DNA from: Candidatus Poribacteria bacterium
Lineage (GTDB): Bacteria; Abyssobacteria; SURF-5
DNA length: 18,425 bases
Assembly: GCA_016215705.1 (NCBI GenBank)
Contig: JACRIR010000201.1
Coordinates: 1-18,425 of the forward strand
Reading direction: 5' to 3'
Below are positions 4,389-18,188 of this stretch, one piece after another (the stretch's first letter is position 1; the number at the start of each line of letters is the position of its first letter). Below the pieces are notes generated by a model. The model was not told the origin of the DNA. It worked only from the letters and a program-made list of their open reading frames with translations, and ran no database searches. A program made the translations under genes and the position numbers.

Positions 4389-4616
4389 TGAATGGAGAAG
4401 AGGGGAAGTGCCTAAAGTGAGCTAGAGTGCCTAATGTTAGAGAGAAAAAAGAGGCGAAGAGGGAACCGAAATGCAAGGCAGGCGAAAGGAGCAAGGCGAA
4501 AGGGAAATCTCACCACAAAGAGAGACATGGGGGAAAAGTATACTGCCGGCAAGGAATGATGAATGGGGAAAAGTGCGAAGTGTGTAAAGTTAGCTGAAGT
4601 GTCTAAAGTTGGAAAG
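4384..4616. repeat. Purine-rich spacer with a duplicated ~61-bp unit
   Basis: Two diverged copies (4384-4444 and 4555-4616) share AATGATGAATGG at the start, then GAAGTG..TAAAGT.AGCT..AGTG.CTAA.GTT. Between them is a GGCGAAAGG-type tract (4480-4507), also seen in other spacers of this window. The first copy begins two bases before the stop codon of the TetR gene. No gene is seen in 4389-4785. Confidence 0.65.
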
Positions 4617-9810: not shown

Positions 9811-11619
9811 TTAGAAATCTCTTGACCGGGGTCTTTTATTGGCTTGAAGGATTTTCTTTCTCAGTCGTATGGATTGGGGGGTTACTTCGACCAGTTCATC
9901 TTCTTTGATGAATTCCAATGACTCCTCTAAACTCAGTATCTTGGCCGGCACAAGTTGCAGGGCTTCATCGGAACCGGCGGCGCGCATATTAGTCAGTTTC
10001 TTTTCCTTGGTGACATTGACTTGCATGTCATCGTCTCTTGAATTCTCGCCGACAATCATGCCTTCATACACAGGCGTATTCTCTCTTATGAAAAGAATCC
10101 CTCTGGGTTGCAGGTGGAATAGGGCGTATGTCGTTGCTTTGCCTTGTCTGTCGGCTACCAGAGCGCCGGCCTGCCTCTTGGACATGGGGCCGTGCCAGGG
10201 CTCATAGCCGTCAAACAGATGATTCAATAGGCCGGTCCCCCTGGTGTCGGTCAAGAACTGGGACCTGAAGCCAATCAGTCCTCTGGAGGGTATCCTGAAT
10301 TCCAGCCGTACACGCCCATGCTCATTGTTCCGCATCTTCTGCATGCGGCCTCTTCTCATGCCAAGTTGTTGAGTTACGACGCCGACAAAATCTTCAGGGA
10401 TATCGACGATCAGCAATTCCATCGGTTCGTGCAAAGCGCCATTGATTTCTTTTGTGATGGTTTCCGGCATCGAGACGGAAAGTTCATATCCTTCGCGGCG
10501 CATCATTTCCACCAGAATGGCCAGTTGCAGTTCACCCCGGCCGCTCAATTTGTAAGCGTCGGAGTTAGAAAAGTCCACAGTGATGGAAACATTGTATAGT
10601 AGTTCCTTTTCCAATCTCTCCCTAATGTTTCGTGAAGTTACGAACCTGCCTTCTTTTCCGCCGAACGGCGAGTTATTGACCGAGAACATCATGGATATCG
10701 TTGGTTCATCCACCTTTATCCTGCGTAATGCCCTGGGTTTTTCCCTGTCGGTAATGGTATCACCAATACTTATTCCTTCCAGTCCTGCCAGCGCCACTAT
10801 TTCACCCGCCGAGGCGGTATTTGTTTCCACCATTTTGAGGGCGGAAAAAGCGTAGATGGAGGTTATTTTTGTCTTTATTGTATCGCCTGCGCTATTTATC
10901 ATTGCCACCTGATCGCCGACACTTACGGTTCCGGAGAATATGCGCCCGATGGCAAGTCTGCCGACATAATCGCTGTAGTCGATGTTTGCAACCAGCACTT
11001 GCAGGATGCCGTCCTTATCGCCGACAGGCGCGGGGATTGTCTTAATCAAGAGCTCGAAGAGACGTTTCAGGTCCGTTGGTTTTTTCTTGATATCCGTTGT
11101 GGCTGCGGCTGCCTTGGCGTTAGTATAGACAATAGGAAATTCAAGTTGTTCTTCTGTGGCGTCGAGCTCGATATAGAGGTCGTAGACTTCGTTTATCACT
11201 TCCTTGATTCTGGCATCGGGCCTGTCGATCTTGTTTATGACCAATATGGAGGGCAGATTGAGTTCCAAAGCCTTTTTGAGCACAAATCTGGTTTGCGGGA
11301 GGGGCCCTTCGGAGGCGTCCACAAGCAACAAGACCCCGTCCACCATGGTCATGGTTCTTTCAACTTCTCCTCCGAAGTCGGCATGGCCGGGAGTATCAAC
11401 GATGTTTATCTTTACGCCGTTGTATTCGACGGCGGTATTCTTGGCCATTATGGTAATGCCTTTTTCCTTCTCGAGATCGAGATTATCCATAACTCGTTCC
11501 GCTATCGTTTCATTATCCCGAAAGTTACCGGCTTGCCGCAGCATGCCGTCGACAAGGGTTGTTTTACCATGATCAACATGAGATATGATGGCAATATTTC
11601 TTATGTCTTTGCGTTTCAT
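9811..11619 (-). CDS. typA: Ribosome-associated translational GTPase TypA/BipA
   Basis: A 602-residue translation-factor GTPase that binds the ribosome and helps 50S assembly and stress or low-temperature growth (family knowledge). It carries G1 SHVDHGKTT (residues 13-21), G2 EKGITI, G3 DTPGHADF (75-82) and G4 NKID. The EF-G-like domains follow, and the C-terminal part contains the TypA hallmarks [15 protein letters not shown] and RNPRGLIGFR-like ([13 protein letters not shown]). The length is normal for the family, with a short basic tail (NKRPRSRDF). The ATG at 11617-11619 is preceded by GAGG at close spacing. It is a housekeeping gene with a leader of about 190 nt that holds a nested palindrome. 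Identification is secure. Confidence 0.97.
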
Positions 11620-11861: not shown

Positions 11862-11900
11862 AGGGGCGAAAGGAGAAAGGAGAAAGGAGAAAGGGAAAAC
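11862..11900. repeat. Purine-rich GGCGAAAGG/AGAAAGG tract
   Basis: GGGGCGAAAGG is followed by three AGAAAGG units and AGAAAGGGAAAAC. It is one of at least five such tracts in the window (others near 4480-4507, 16699-16738, 17665-17701 and 18053-18081), always in spacers. Confidence 0.6.
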
Positions 11901-12172: not shown

Positions 12173-14122
12173 TTACTTCACCACCGCCCAGACGCTCTTG
12201 GTCCAAGTGAATCGCACGCGACCAGGATTGCGGAATTTAACTACTTTGGCTGCGGTTGTCTCGCCGGGCGGGAGTTCGTTATCCGCCCCCAGGGATCCAC
12301 TGAAATCAAAATAGGGCTTGCCTTCAGTGGTAGTTCCATCAGCGTTGGCCACGGTGGCAGAGGCATTGCTGATGGTATCAATCACCAGTCTCATCGGCGC
12401 AACCAGAGTATTTGAGCAGTTGTTCCTGATAGTGCAATTGCCCGACTCGACGTTGGTTACGCGGTCAAATGTTACTCCGGAATAATTGACACTGGTTTTG
12501 TCGGTGACATTAACCGGACCACACAGATCTGCAATCTCTTCAGCCGAAAGAGCCCGGTTGAATAGATACACCTCGTCAATGAGACCGTGGAAATAGTTTT
12601 CCCGTGGGCCGCTCACCTGACCAATTCGAAGGGGGGTCGAGGGATTATAATTCAGCCGTTCAAGCGGAGCGACGAAGGGGCTTGAAGCAACCTCACTGCC
12701 ATTCAGGTAAAGCCTCAGCGTCAGGCCGTCATAAGTGACAGCAGCATGGCGCCATTCGAGGGTGGACAAGGCAGATCGATAGGTCACCAGCCCTTCTTCA
12801 GACGCGAGCCAACTATGCGTTCCGCTCCATACTCCTGCCTGGAGTTGAGTTGTTCCTCCCTGGGTGTATCCCACTCCCAGGTAATAGCTGTCGGTTCGAT
12901 TGTCTGCGTCGCCTTGATTATCTTTGCTCACCAAATAGGCGAAATTCCGGCTGAATGAAGATGCGTTGAGCCAACAAGCTATGGTCAGGCCGGGCATGCC
13001 GCTTAGTGCGCCATCATCGTTCACCAGCACCTGGTCATTTATGCCATCAAAGCTCAATGCGTCGTGGGCGCAGCCTTCAGATGTCCAAGTGGCTCCGATG
13101 ACTGTCCCGTTGTGGCCATCGGAGTCATCGTTGCCCGGATTGCCGGGATTGTCGAACGACCAATAGGCAATAGGGTTTGCCGAGGGAAGGTAGGCAGCCT
13201 CAAGCATGGTAGACGGCGCCGTGCCGCCTACGGCAACGTCTCCGCCGGCAACATATATGATGCCGTTGATGATTTCGGCTCCGGGGCTGTCCTTTGCCTC
13301 ATGCAGCGGCGACAAGGAGGCGCACGTTCCCGCTTCTGTGTCATATACTTCAACCAGGTTCAGAAGTGGCGCAATGTTATTGTTACCACCCATGAGATAA
13401 ATTTTCGCTCCATATACAACTGAGGCCATAAGGCATCTTGCGGAGCAAACCGCCGGCAGGGATTCCCATTCGCCCGATGCGAGATTCAAAGCCTCGATCC
13501 TGCTTATAGAAGTATCTGTGTATCCGTTGATGGCGAATATTCGGGTCCCCACCTTTTCGCATGCCATCGCAGTTCGCGCGGTAGGCATAGAGGGACCGGG
13601 GCGCCAGGTGTTGCTGTCGACGTTGTAGATTTCCACAGTGGATAATCTCACTCCCGCCCGGCTGCCGCCGATCAGGTAGATATCGCGCCCATCGACGACC
13701 GCAGAGGCGCCACCGCGAGATGTCGGCATTGGGGCGAGAGATTTCGTGGCGCACGCGACCGGATCATACTCCCAAGCCCAATTCACTTCTCCTCCGCCTT
13801 GTGGAACTCCGCCAAACAAATAGATTTTATTATCGAGACTTGCTGATGCTCCGTCAGTAAGCGCAGCGGGGAGTGCGCACTCAGTTGTCCAATCATTGGT
13901 TGCAGCGTTGTAGCTTTCCACCGAGTTGAACATTGTGCCAGAGCCATTGTTGCCGCCTAGGGCATAGAATTTATCGTGTGCTACTCCGGTAACGTGTCCT
14001 TGCCTGCCTACATTCATGCTGTCCCTGATTTGCCATACGACGTCGGCGTATGACACGGAGCACAATACGAGGACAAGAACCATGGATACTACACAGGTTG
14101 TGCTTTTCCATAATCTTTCCAT
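12173..14122 (-). CDS. Secreted Kelch-repeat / LamG-like (concanavalin fold) protein
   Basis: A 649-residue exported protein. The signal peptide is residues 1-26 (hydrophobic core VVSMVLVLVLCSV, cleavage after SYA). Residues about 35-312 form a six-blade Kelch propeller with repeated IYLxGG and Y...NxW/E signatures (YALGG, YLFGG, YLIGG, FAING, YLMGG, YVAGG). Residues about 317-536 form a LamG/pentraxin-like jelly roll (AYWSFD, LSFDGINDQVLV, WRHAAVTYDG, LRLYLNGS, GLIDEVYLFNRALSAEEI). Residues 537-649 form a small beta-sandwich common at the end of exported proteins. The ATG at 14120-14122 has AAGGAG nine bases upstream and gives a good signal peptide, so I prefer it to the in-frame ATG at 14165-14167. 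The role is probably carbohydrate or surface binding. It lies 3' of the barrel gene but has its own promoter. Confidence 0.88.
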   Translation of the reverse strand: MERLWKSTTCVVSMVLVLVLCSVSYADVVWQIRDSMNVGRQGHVTGVAHDKFYALGGNNGSGTMFNSVESYNAATNDWTTECALPAALTDGASASLDNKIYLFGGVPQGGGEVNWAWEYDPVACATKSLAPMPTSRGGASAVVDGRDIYLIGGSRAGVRLSTVEIYNVDSNTWRPGPSMPTARTAMACEKVGTRIFAINGYTDTSISRIEALNLASGEWESLPAVCSARCLMASVVYGAKIYLMGGNNNIAPLLNLVEVYDTEAGTCASLSPLHEAKDSPGAEIINGIIYVAGGDVAVGGTAPSTMLEAAYLPSANPIAYWSFDNPGNPGNDDSDGHNGTVIGATWTSEGCAHDALSFDGINDQVLVNDDGALSGMPGLTIACWLNASSFSRNFAYLVSKDNQGDADNRTDSYYLGVGYTQGGTTQLQAGVWSGTHSWLASEEGLVTYRSALSTLEWRHAAVTYDGLTLRLYLNGSEVASSPFVAPLERLNYNPSTPLRIGQVSGPRENYFHGLIDEVYLFNRALSAEEIADLCGPVNVTDKTSVNYSGVTFDRVTNVESGNCTIRNNCSNTLVAPMRLVIDTISNASATVANADGTTTEGKPYFDFSGSLGADNELPPGETTAAKVVKFRNPGRVRFTWTKSVWAVVK

Positions 14123-14202
14123 TGCGTTAGTCTCCTTTTTGGTCAAGAAAGAGAGTGTAACCAGCATAACTCACCCGCGAAGCAAGCCGATTTGATGGAG
14201 AA

Positions 14203-14655: not shown

Positions 14656-16677
14656 CTAGAAGCGGTAGGCCAGGGCGAGATATATGCCGTGGCCGCGGTA
14701 GTCATCGAATCCATTATGGTGGGTGTCCTCGAAGTTGAAGTATTCGTAGCGCGCGCTAATGATCTTGTCTTCGGTGAGTTGATATTCGGCGCCGAGCCAA
14801 ACCTCGTCGAGATCGTTGTCCACGTCTTTCCCTGTGTTCTGCGTGTGTTGATATGACAGATTGGTCGCCCATTTTTCGTCTATCGCGTAGCGGCTACTGA
14901 GGAAAAGGATGTAGGATTCATAGCGAAAATCGAAAGGACCCTCGCCGTCAGCCCACGCATTGCCTCCGGTCCCGAAGTCGCCGACAGGGGCGTCCACCGG
15001 CGTGTCGAGTTTGAAATTTTCGTACGTCGCCATGCCGCTCAGCGACAATCTCGCCATCGGTGCGCCATATACTGAGGTGGAAACCCGGTGAATCTTCGAG
15101 TCCTGCCCGTCTGCGCTCTGGTTGTCGAATTGTCTTTCCTCATCCTCGAACTGGTATTCTATCGTAGTTGTCCAGGCCGGCAGGAAACGCCAGTCGCCTT
15201 TGAGCGTGAGTTTATGGACGTCATGCATCAGGTCTCCCTGATTTCCGGGATATGCGGTCGGGTCGATGTCGAAGTTTTCGTCGTAATCCTCTTCGTTGTC
15301 TCTGAAACGGTATCGGGCCATGAGTCTGAGGTCTGACCGGGGACGGTTGACGATGGTGAAGGTGTATTGCTGCCAGTCATAGTCAATGTCGGCATCGCGG
15401 GAGAAATTGTTTTCGACCACCTCTTCCTGGTCAATGAATCTTTGCTCCCATTCTCCCTGTACGGAAACCGTTGTGTTCTCGAGGCCTTTCCATATAACTT
15501 CGGCGAATTCACCCAGGCGGGTTTCCTGCTTATCGAGAGCGTCGGTTACGGGGGAACTCACCAAAAGGCCGTCACTGTCTCCATCAATGTCGAGGTCTTC
15601 GGCCCTGAAGTTAGCGCGAAAGGTTGTATCCTTGGCGACATTAAGAAGGACGAGGCCGAGAGCAAACGCGTTACTCGTCTGATCGTTGTTCACGTCGTTG
15701 TCGGAGAAGAGGGAAATCGGTGGTGTGAGCGCGTCGCGCTCGAATTCATTATTGAGGTCGCTGCGGTAGTAGTTCGCGCTCAGGTACACGTTCTCGGTTA
15801 TAAAGCTGTCGAAGCTGAAGAGGGTCCTCAACTCGTTCCATTCGGGTGAATCATCGAAGATAAGTGAACTCGTGGGGGCTCCGTTTACGAAAGTGGTTTC
15901 GACAGACTCCTGGTCTTCGTTGAAATCTTCATATTCCTCCCTGAGCTTGAAGTTATATTTGTCCTTCAGAGTCACCGGAATCTCGAGATAAACGGTGTCG
16001 CTCCTGCCGTCCACGTCGTTTACTATCGGAATAAACGAGCCGAATGGGACCCCCGGCGTAGTGGATATGGCGATGCCGCCTCTCGCAAGGACCTCATCGC
16101 CGAAGCGCTCCCAATGATGCCAGCCCAACACGACGTGCGGGATATCGGGAAGCAGGAGCGTTCCCTGAAGGTTCGCATCCACACGGTCAGCGAACAGGTC
16201 ATCGTCATCGTCCTCCGCGAAGTCCGTGGTGAGGCCGTAGAGGGCGGGATTCCACTTTTCACTCAGCCGGTCGTAGTATTTGCGATGCCTGGAGAAATCG
16301 AAATCCAGTCGAACCACGTCCGGCTTCTCGTAGTGGCCGCTGGCAGCATAGAAATCCTCCGCAATCGCGGTTATGGAGACGTTCCAGTTTTCACGCGAAT
16401 AGGAGAACTGCTCGAGGCCTCCGGTCAGTTGGTCGCTAATGAACCTGTCCTCGCGGAAACGACCATCGTCGCCGCTCACATTATAGTAGGTCGCGCCGCC
16501 CCGGAGATATCCGCCGGAATATTGGCCATAGTACCAGCCGTCAAGCTCTTGCTGTGTGTATGGATAGTACCAGTTGTTCAAGTCTTCCAAAGGGTCCGCG
16601 ACGGCTGGTGTGAAGGCGCCTACCAGCAGAAGAGCTATGGCAAGCACTAGCGAAAGGGTTCTCCTGGCAGCTTTCAT
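14656..16677 (-). CDS. Outer-membrane beta-barrel, MtrB/PioB/OmbB-like porin of a porin-cytochrome complex
   Basis: A 673-residue outer-membrane protein. The signal peptide is residues 1-27 (MKAARR, then LSLVLAIALLLVGAF, cleavage AVA|DP). The remainder alternates amphipathic strands (for example DVVRLDFDFSRHRKYY, TVYLEIPVTLKDKYNFKLREEYEDF, HKLTLKGDWRF, ISARYEYFNFE) with acidic loops (AEDDDDDLFAD, EDLDIDGDSDG). It ends in ALAYRF, the C-terminal Phe used for barrel assembly. The length matches MtrB-type barrels. Its position 171 bp downstream of an octaheme cytochrome on the same strand supports a role as the sheath that carries the cytochrome across the outer membrane. There is no cysteine, so the CxxC of Shewanella MtrB is absent. 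The ATG at 16675-16677 has AGGAGG eight bases upstream, preferred to the ATG at 16717. It could also be an unrelated porin. Confidence 0.8.
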   Translation of the reverse strand: MKAARRTLSLVLAIALLLVGAFTPAVADPLEDLNNWYYPYTQQELDGWYYGQYSGGYLRGGATYYNVSGDDGRFREDRFISDQLTGGLEQFSYSRENWNVSITAIAEDFYAASGHYEKPDVVRLDFDFSRHRKYYDRLSEKWNPALYGLTTDFAEDDDDDLFADRVDANLQGTLLLPDIPHVVLGWHHWERFGDEVLARGGIAISTTPGVPFGSFIPIVNDVDGRSDTVYLEIPVTLKDKYNFKLREEYEDFNEDQESVETTFVNGAPTSSLIFDDSPEWNELRTLFSFDSFITENVYLSANYYRSDLNNEFERDALTPPISLFSDNDVNNDQTSNAFALGLVLLNVAKDTTFRANFRAEDLDIDGDSDGLLVSSPVTDALDKQETRLGEFAEVIWKGLENTTVSVQGEWEQRFIDQEEVVENNFSRDADIDYDWQQYTFTIVNRPRSDLRLMARYRFRDNEEDYDENFDIDPTAYPGNQGDLMHDVHKLTLKGDWRFLPAWTTTIEYQFEDEERQFDNQSADGQDSKIHRVSTSVYGAPMARLSLSGMATYENFKLDTPVDAPVGDFGTGGNAWADGEGPFDFRYESYILFLSSRYAIDEKWATNLSYQHTQNTGKDVDNDLDEVWLGAEYQLTEDKIISARYEYFNFEDTHHNGFDDYRGHGIYLALAYRF

Positions 16678-16698
16678 CGAGATGTCCTCCTGAGAAAG

Positions 16699-16738
16699 AG
16701 GCGAAAGGCAAAAGGGCAAAGGCGAAAGGGAAAATAGG
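16699..16738. repeat. Purine-rich GGCGAAAGG tract in the barrel leader
   Basis: AGGCGAAAGGCAAAAGGGCAAAGGCGAAAGGGAAAATAGG-type sequence lies just upstream of the barrel's ribosome site. In the transcript it reads as a pyrimidine-rich CTTTCGCC run. The same kind of run precedes the cytochrome gene (17665-17701). Confidence 0.6.
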
Positions 16739-16823
16739 CCAAAGAAGAAAGACTGCTTTCATTCACAATTACCACAATGCCTGCGCTCCTTCCTTCGTAA
16801 ATAACCACTTGATGGGTATGGTC

Positions 16824-16844
16824 GGCCGCTCAGAGATGACGGCC
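16824..16844. promoter_or_regulatory. Intercistronic hairpin between cytochrome and barrel
   Basis: GGCCG/CGGCC pairs around an 11-nt loop, 4 bp past the cytochrome stop codon. It could set the ratio of the two products by attenuation or mRNA processing. The stem is only five base pairs. Confidence 0.25.
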
Positions 16845-16848
16845 TGTA

Positions 16849-17622
16849 TTATCGCAGGAATCGGCGGTTAATGTTTGACCCCATTGGCGCTCTATGGCAA
16901 TCGATGCACTCGGCGCCGCGTCCGATGGTAAAGCCGGCATGCGACATACGGCCCATTTCCGCGGCAGGAGTGTTCACGCTTTGCTCCCAATGACAGCGGA
17001 TGCACAGCACGATCGGCTCGGCAACCAGCAGTTTCTTGGAGACCGATCCGTGAGGATCGTGGCAGACCTGACAGCCGTCGCGCACCGGGTCGTGCTCAAA
17101 CACAAATGGTCCCTTGAATTCCTTGTGACACCTGAAGCATTTTTCGCCCGGACGCAGGATCGAGACGGCCGACCACGCCCTGACGTCCTCGGCATGGGGG
17201 GTGTGACAGTCGGTGCACTTTATCCATCTCTCGGGGACAGGGTGGTGATATTGAAGCTGGAATTTCGCTCTGATATCCAGATGACAAACGAAGCAACGGT
17301 CTGCGGAATACCTGACAATTTTTCCGGGGTCGCCGCCAGCGTCCACGTGCAGACTCCCGGCGCCGTGACATGATTCGCATGCCTCGCCCTTATGTTGCTC
17401 CCCCTCTTTGACGCTGGTTCCGAAATGAGACGTCAATCGAAACCGCTTTGCTTGCTCCGGATGACAGACTTCGCATGTTTCGATGCCCACATACTCTGCT
17501 CCGTTCATCATGGGACCGGCCAACGACATCTGATATCCCGGCGGCGTCGATTGGCAGGACATTATGAAAACGGCGCCAATCAGAATAGTCGTTATTCCGG
17601 ATATCCAATGAAACTTTGTCAT
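16849..17622 (-). CDS. Octaheme c-type cytochrome lipoprotein (MtrA/DmsE/OmaB-like)
   Basis: A 257-residue multiheme electron carrier. Eight CxxCH sites lie at residues 50-54, 82-86, 110-114, 136-140, 162-166, 184-188, 207-211 and 239-243. Candidate distal His ligands are His66, His92, His127, His143, His177, His191 and His228. The N-terminus is a lipoprotein signal (hydrophobic helix, then FIMSC with Cys23). Family signatures are CESCHGAGSLHVDAGGDP, KGPFVFEHDPVRDGCQVCH and DPHGSVSKKLL, all typical of the MtrA/MtoA/DmsE decaheme group; this protein has eight hemes. The ATG at 17620-17622 has GAGGAGG upstream. It is the first gene of a unit with the barrel at 14656. The pair is expected to move electrons between periplasm and cell surface. 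Direction (reducing metals or oxidising Fe(II)) cannot be told. Confidence 0.9.
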   Translation of the reverse strand: MTKFHWISGITTILIGAVFIMSCQSTPPGYQMSLAGPMMNGAEYVGIETCEVCHPEQAKRFRLTSHFGTSVKEGEQHKGEACESCHGAGSLHVDAGGDPGKIVRYSADRCFVCHLDIRAKFQLQYHHPVPERWIKCTDCHTPHAEDVRAWSAVSILRPGEKCFRCHKEFKGPFVFEHDPVRDGCQVCHDPHGSVSKKLLVAEPIVLCIRCHWEQSVNTPAAEMGRMSHAGFTIGRGAECIDCHRAPMGSNINRRFLR

Positions 17623-18188
17623 GGCGATACCTCCTCAAAGAAATAAGAGGGAAAAGGGAACAACAGGCGAAAGATGAAAGGAGTAAGGCGAAAGGGAGAA
17701 TCCGGAAAGAACGCAACACTTCTGTTTTGGGTTTTCAGGCTTCACTATTCTTCATCAACCGACCCGTTTGTGGCGGATCAGTCGCCCCTCAGAAATGGTT
17801 TCAGGTTTCTGGTTGAAGAATCGCGTTCTCAAATGACCAGGAACGGCGGGCAACGTCGTTCCAGACAAAGGCCGAAAATATAAAGTCTGAAATTTGAGGT
17901 CAGGAGTCGTTCCCTTAAGGGAATGGTTTTCCCAAAAGAGCGGGAAACGTCCGGACTCGAAGCAGTTCGCGCGTATAGGCCGGCCAGGATGAAGCTGATG
18001 ATGCTTTGGTCAGCGCAATGCTAACTATGCCAACACAATGGTCGTATGGCAAGCGCAAAGGGAGGAGAAAGGCGAAAGAGGACCGCCGAAGGCAATGGGT
18101 TTGGAGTTCAACGTTCAAGGCTTAGGGTTAAAGATAAGCAAAAGGAATTAGGAAACAGAACGATCGCGAAACCCGTTCCAGGTACTTC
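17623..18188. other. Gene-free spacer with palindromes and purine-rich tracts
   Basis: No gene is seen. It holds purine tracts at 17665-17701 and 18053-18081, a hairpin GGAACG/CGTTCC (17840-17862) and a perfect 14-bp palindrome TTCCCTTAAGGGAA (17910-17923). The promoter of the cytochrome unit must lie here on the minus strand; I found no convincing -35/-10 pair. Confidence 0.55.
17910..17923. promoter_or_regulatory. Perfect 14-bp palindrome upstream of the cytochrome operon
   Basis: TTCCCTTAAGGGAA is a perfect dyad about 290 bp upstream of the cytochrome start codon. It could be an operator site, but it could also be a repeat remnant, as palindromes are frequent in these spacers. Confidence 0.3.

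Follow-up and report, generated by a model that had tools for sequence, protein, structure and literature searches.

The gene pair at positions 14656–17622 most probably encodes a two-component electron conduit across the outer membrane, with the architecture of the Mtr systems in a shortened form. The first gene encodes an octaheme lipoprotein cytochrome that is homologous to MtrA, and the second encodes a large β-barrel whose structural model matches MtrB. The window, meaning the whole stretch of DNA that was analyzed, is the entire contig C139 of 18,425 bp, from a 5.47 Mb genome in 270 contigs (92% complete) whose lineage is probably Ca. Abyssubacteria.

Layout of the gene pair and homology of the cytochrome

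Both genes lie on the minus strand, the cytochrome gene first and the barrel gene 171 bp downstream. In both, the sequence AGGAGG sits 7–8 nt before the start codon and makes a strong ribosome-binding site. The barrel open frame extends from 16719 to 14656 and its product ends in ...LALAYRF. Its start is likely the ATG at 16677, 8 nt after the AGGAGG, which would give a protein of about 673 aa. The original prediction had described a lipoprotein-type cytochrome with eight CxxCH sites, followed on the same strand by a barrel of MtrB-like length ending in Phe, and both descriptions were accurate: the cytochrome has 257 aa, a lipobox (IMS-C23) and exactly eight sites, starting at residues 50, 82, 110, 136, 162, 184, 207 and 239. 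The features are as follows, in the order of transcription:

17630–17635, minus strand: Shine-Dalgarno sequence AGGAGG of the cytochrome gene (from the sequence)
16849–17622, minus strand: octaheme MtrA-like lipoprotein cytochrome c, 257 aa (CxxCH count; homology to MtrA)
17554–17565, minus strand: lipobox I-M-S-C23 with Gln at +2 (from the sequence; LxSC is kept in most octaheme relatives)
17461–17475, minus strand: heme site 1, CEVCH, residues 50–54, equivalent to MtrA heme 1 (alignment)
17365–17379, minus strand: heme site 2, CESCH, residues 82–86, equivalent to MtrA heme 2 (alignment)
17296–17319, minus strand: residues 102–109, the point at which decaheme relatives contain the segment that bears hemes 3 and 4 (alignments; TIGR03508 positions 60–115 skipped)
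17281–17295, minus strand: heme site 3, CFVCH, residues 110–114, equivalent to MtrA heme 5 (alignment)
17203–17217, minus strand: heme site 4, CTDCH, residues 136–140, equivalent to MtrA heme 6 (alignment)
17125–17139, minus strand: heme site 5, CFRCH, residues 162–166, equivalent to MtrA heme 7 (alignment)
17059–17073, minus strand: heme site 6, CQVCH, residues 184–188, equivalent to MtrA heme 8 (alignment)
16990–17004, minus strand: heme site 7, CIRCH, residues 207–211, equivalent to MtrA heme 9 (alignment)
16894–16908, minus strand: heme site 8, CIDCH, residues 239–243, equivalent to MtrA heme 10 (alignment)
16882–16884, minus strand: Met247 (ATG), a candidate distal heme ligand position (His of an HGS motif in 20 other octaheme sequences)
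16686–16691, minus strand: Shine-Dalgarno sequence AGGAGG of the barrel gene (from the sequence)
14656–16677, minus strand: MtrB-like outer-membrane β-barrel, 673 aa, with a signal peptide and a C-terminal Phe (AlphaFold model; 6r2q_B top match; profile comparison; PF11854 score)

When the cytochrome was checked against MtrA and DmsE, as had been proposed, it proved to be homologous to MtrA. Its top match in the PDB was MtrA of Shewanella baltica (E = 3.1e-24; chain 6r2q_A, which is MtrA, though mislabelled in the PDB file), and a profile of 18 octaheme sequences matched the same chain with E = 4.3e-48, aligning to MtrA hemes 1–2 and 5–10. Pfam recognized doubled CXXCH domains. The best NCBIfam model was the GSU2203 decaheme family (NF041028), at 168.7 bits against a cut-off of 325, while the DmsE/MtrA decaheme model TIGR03508 gave 155.7 bits, under its curated cut-off of 192.2. 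The canonical MtrA/DmsE class has ten hemes, and the window cytochrome, with eight and with TIGR03508 positions 60–115 absent, falls outside it. Since the skipped positions carry hemes 3 and 4, the octaheme form corresponds to a decaheme MtrA minus one internal two-heme block. In the wide sense, the Mtr superfamily is defined by a cytochrome with MtrA homology and an adjacent barrel of the MtrB fold, and the pair has both. For the cytochrome as a single chain, AlphaFold gave an unusable model (pLDDT 36.8).

Upstream of the cytochrome gene, only about 800 bp remain before the end of the contig, and the view of the neighbors stops there. No surface multiheme cytochrome follows downstream, as the original prediction had noted, and within the contig this is right: a kelch/LamG protein and BipA are encoded there. 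The kelch plus LamG protein (12173–14167) looks secreted and lies on the barrel's strand, 488 bp downstream of the barrel. No RNA or tRNA features turned up when the window was scanned for them, and promoter and terminator scans scored no higher than shuffles. The window also holds a purine-rich repeat phased in 7 bases (AAAGGCG-AAAGGGN-AAA), found at 4492, 11869–11894, 16697–16729, 17684 and 18068. Nine near-copies were counted in the window, outside the main predicted genes, against 0.17 expected, and genome-wide the repeat occurs at 139 places against 3 for a reversed control.

The barrel and the fold of MtrB

An AlphaFold model of the barrel, based on 17 octaheme-linked barrels, had a pLDDT of 80.5, a pTM of 0.74 and 26–27 strands (27 by DSSP). 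In a Foldseek search of the PDB, MtrB (6r2q_B) ranked first, with E = 1.2e-12 and TM scores of 0.66 and 0.68. VIA-align superimposed the model on the same chain over 561 residues at 3.8 Å rmsd with a Z score of 21.3, compared to 17.1 for the runner-up chain and about 15 for TonB receptors. The early strands of the model are short, and a helix at residues 71–78 separates strand 1 from strand 2; both traits are also reported for MtrB, in which the helix caps a side channel (PMC7198977). A small-pore porin unrelated to MtrB, one of the two outcomes that the original prediction had named as together refuting it, is therefore not what we found, as MtrB is the best match of the model across the PDB.

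Comparison of profiles pointed in the same direction. The octaheme-linked barrel profile matched that of the decaheme-linked MtrB-type barrels with a probability of 99.4% (E = 5.8e-21, 616 columns), while among the controls, which were single sequences and thus of unequal depth, two other barrels reached 24.7% and 0.2% and one MtrB-type barrel 81.8%. The Pfam family MtrB_PioB (PF11854, gathering cut-off 23 bits) scored 32.7 bits for the window barrel in a genome search and was unlisted by hmmscan. The top NCBIfam model was the GSU2204 family (NF041027), at 30.8 bits against a cut-off of 350. Searched against PDB sequences, the barrel family profile had no real match to MtrB from sequence alone.

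Paralogues and the origin of the octaheme form

Two further pairs are found in tandem on contig C81, in the same cytochrome–barrel order as in the window. Identity to the window copy is 71–72% for the cytochromes and 57–62% for the barrels (62 and 57%), and the two barrels score 26.5 and 23.5 bits with PF11854, both above the cut-off. After the C81 pairs come two cytochrome c maturation genes, those of ResB and ResC, assigned by similarity to ResB-family neighbors. We also considered a cytochrome-maturation operon for the window pair and rejected it, as ResB and ResC are not in the window. The terminal heme site sets the three copies apart. This site, the eighth, reads CIDCH in the window copy and CX4CH in most relatives, while both C81 paralogues (L017:6317–7093 and 9943–10731) have CVDHH, in which the second cysteine is lost. 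Conversely, the near-invariant His of the HGS motif is kept in the C81 copies and replaced by Met in the window copy only. One idea, which we hold as rather doubtful, is that a change in how the surface-end heme is ligated or attached adapts each of the three wires to a potential or outer partner of its own.

Relatives were collected from GTDB species genomes (best 80 matches) and from further genomes. The matches listed fell into two types: the great majority combined a decaheme cytochrome with a barrel, and a smaller set of octaheme loci was present in Verrucomicrobiota, Omnitrophota, one Planctomycetota, genome G132 and the window genome. An HMM made from the genome's own three barrels matched 15 of the 17 octaheme-linked barrels, with E between 1e-27 and 3e-4, missing those of L046 and L055, and no decaheme-linked barrel of the listed loci fell below 1e-3. 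At G049 and G228, a decaheme cytochrome stands with a barrel of the octaheme-linked family, and this combination makes the two loci look like intermediates. In a phylogenetic tree, 20 of 21 octaheme sequences formed one group (support 100/97), together with the G049 decaheme sequence, which sits inside the group on a long branch; L055 may fall outside. Strict monophyly of the octaheme sequences was mildly rejected in a second, smaller tree (AU test, p = 0.033, on a reduced set). The simplest reading of these data is that a decaheme ancestor lost the two-heme block, and a single loss is likely.

Several loci had additional features. Of the 19 octaheme loci, 5 (L043, L044, L093, L147 and L017) have both ResB and ResC next to the pair, compared to 1 of 65 decaheme loci, in flanks of unequal length. 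Two verrucomicrobial octaheme-locus barrels (L053:6718–9135 and L054:6717–9143) carry an N-terminal PSCyt1 domain, and these are apparently fusions to a monoheme cytochrome. In Candidatus Didemnitutus (L049:1238–5725), two octaheme cytochromes occur in tandem, each followed by a barrel-sized frame, as on C81. In the host's own family, neither of two other genomes (G001 and G002) has the barrel, and a distant cytochrome match is present in one.

Two other explanations were considered. If the barrel were a transporter or general porin, the cytochrome would be a periplasmic carrier that is merely adjacent. The general fold is indeed common to many large barrels, and those of TonB receptors reach Z scores of about 15, but MtrB stood well above other barrels in both structural comparisons, the order of the pair is kept across phyla, and the family of the barrel follows the type of cytochrome. 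We regard this reading as the least probable of the explanations. The pairing of the two genes is not due to chance, as the genome has two paralogous pairs in equal order and the arrangement recurs in several other phyla. Decay of the window copy after duplication, with the tandem C81 copies as the functional ones, is also very unlikely. The change of the conserved distal His247 to Met in this copy alone would fit decay, but its eight CxxCH motifs are intact, both genes are open and have strong ribosome-binding sites, and it was the C81 copies, not the window copy, that lost a heme cysteine.

Proposed electron transfer and relation to known systems

If the pair is a conduit of the Mtr type, the cytochrome would be exported, loaded with eight c-type hemes and lipidated at its N-terminus. 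The lipobox has Gln after the Cys, which, by the E. coli sorting rule, suggests anchoring at the inner leaflet of the outer membrane. The C-terminal heme chain, equivalent to MtrA hemes 5–10, would be threaded through the MtrB-like barrel of about 26 strands, and electrons would hop along it between periplasm and cell surface. MtrA measures 80 Å from heme 1 to heme 10, with heme 1 about 20 Å into the periplasm and a membrane of about 40 Å, and its N-terminal half is loosely held (PMC7198977). Hemes 3 and 4, lost relative to MtrA, would belong to this mobile, periplasm-facing half, and the lipid anchor may replace part of the hold on the periplasmic side. By simple arithmetic from the MtrA spacing (80 Å for ten hemes), the chain without these two would be about 60 Å long and would still span the 40 Å membrane.

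The genome encodes many multiheme proteins, with up to 30 motifs in one protein, as well as NapC/NirT-family cytochromes. No surface partner of the OmcA/MtrC family was found above cut-off in the genome, where only weak fragments in other multiheme proteins matched, nor was a surface cytochrome found adjoining any of the three octaheme pairs. A QrcABCD-type menaquinone module is present (L128:6299–11374, contig C7), with three subunits over cut-off and QrcC just under, and no DsrA over cut-off was found in this genome. On contig C215, an 806-aa protein with no Pfam match and a C-terminal Phe (L124:7547–9967) lies among several multiheme cytochromes, and is perhaps part of another kind of conduit.

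Within the conduit interpretation, it is quite possible, if short of probable, that the pair imports electrons, like PioAB and MtoAB, from Fe(II), a mineral or a partner cell. An extracellular MtrC-type partner is absent, as in PioAB/MtoAB, and the genome has the QrcABCD-type module. The established role of Qrc is to pass electrons from periplasmic cytochromes into menaquinone. On the other hand, multiheme conduits of the Mtr sort are reversible, as seen in liposomes (PMC7198977), the other large cytochromes of the genome could be surface partners, and by their record titles the relatives belong to genomes from groundwater, soil and lakes. It is unlikely that the conduit instead feeds an extracellular oxidoreductase, with a surface reductase encoded elsewhere and no direct contact with minerals, humics or cells. 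DmsEF has an identical architecture and DmsE (TIGR03508) was among the best family models for the cytochrome, but the window contains no molybdopterin reductase, and the Mo-like Qrc subunit on C7 is part of the menaquinone reductase module.

The original suggestion of a two-component conduit as in PioAB/MtoAB is supported as regards the conduit, given the MtrA homology and the MtrB-like barrel, but not as regards membership in PioAB/MtoAB, because the cytochromes of those systems are decaheme and that of the window lacks hemes 3–4 and scores under the DmsE/MtrA cut-off. With Shewanella MtrAB (6r2q, PMC7198977), PioAB and MtoAB, the pair shares a homologous cytochrome and a 26–27-strand barrel of the same fold. 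It differs in having eight hemes, not ten (3 and 4 missing), a lipoprotein anchor, no MtrC and a cytochrome below the curated decaheme cut-offs. The GSU2203/GSU2204 families (NF041028 and NF041027) were the best-scoring models, yet the matches were far below the cut-offs, and the GSU2203 family is decaheme. Geobacter OmbB-OmaB-OmcB (Pcc), likened here by description, also has an eight-heme inner cytochrome and a porin, but includes a 12-heme outer cytochrome, and Pcc is reported to have no phylogenetic relation to Mtr (PMC4245776).

Among the systems described so far, the nearest is that of He et al. 2017 (mSphere, PMC5615132), who found octaheme cytochromes beside porins of at least 20 strands in bog Verrucomicrobia and considered this system novel and without homology to Mtr or Pcc. 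The window pair is very likely of this kind, with which it has an eight-heme periplasmic cytochrome and an adjacent large porin in common. Homologous verrucomicrobial octaheme pairs, including those of Opitutaceae, were found here, and the pairs at L042, L043, L045 and L047–L055 have the phylum and gene arrangement of the loci of He et al., to which they are likened by description. What our analysis has in addition to that report is the homology to MtrA, the MtrB fold and a pair in another lineage. The profile and structure comparisons indicate that the verrucomicrobial octaheme pairs and Mtr share an origin. Searches of the open-access literature yielded no paper that reports an octaheme pair in Omnitrophota or Abyssubacteria or that derives such a pair from MtrA, and the searched text of the Ca. 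Abyssubacteria description paper (PMC6121073) names no Mtr-type conduit. The kind of conduit has already been reported in Verrucomicrobia.

With these results, a lineage that is probably Ca. Abyssubacteria has three copies of an Mtr-type conduit, and we found no earlier report of one there. They also suggest that the verrucomicrobial octaheme conduits previously considered unrelated are a branch of Mtr that lost a two-heme block. Such conduits would offer a natural test of the minimum length of a transmembrane heme wire and of which hemes are dispensable.
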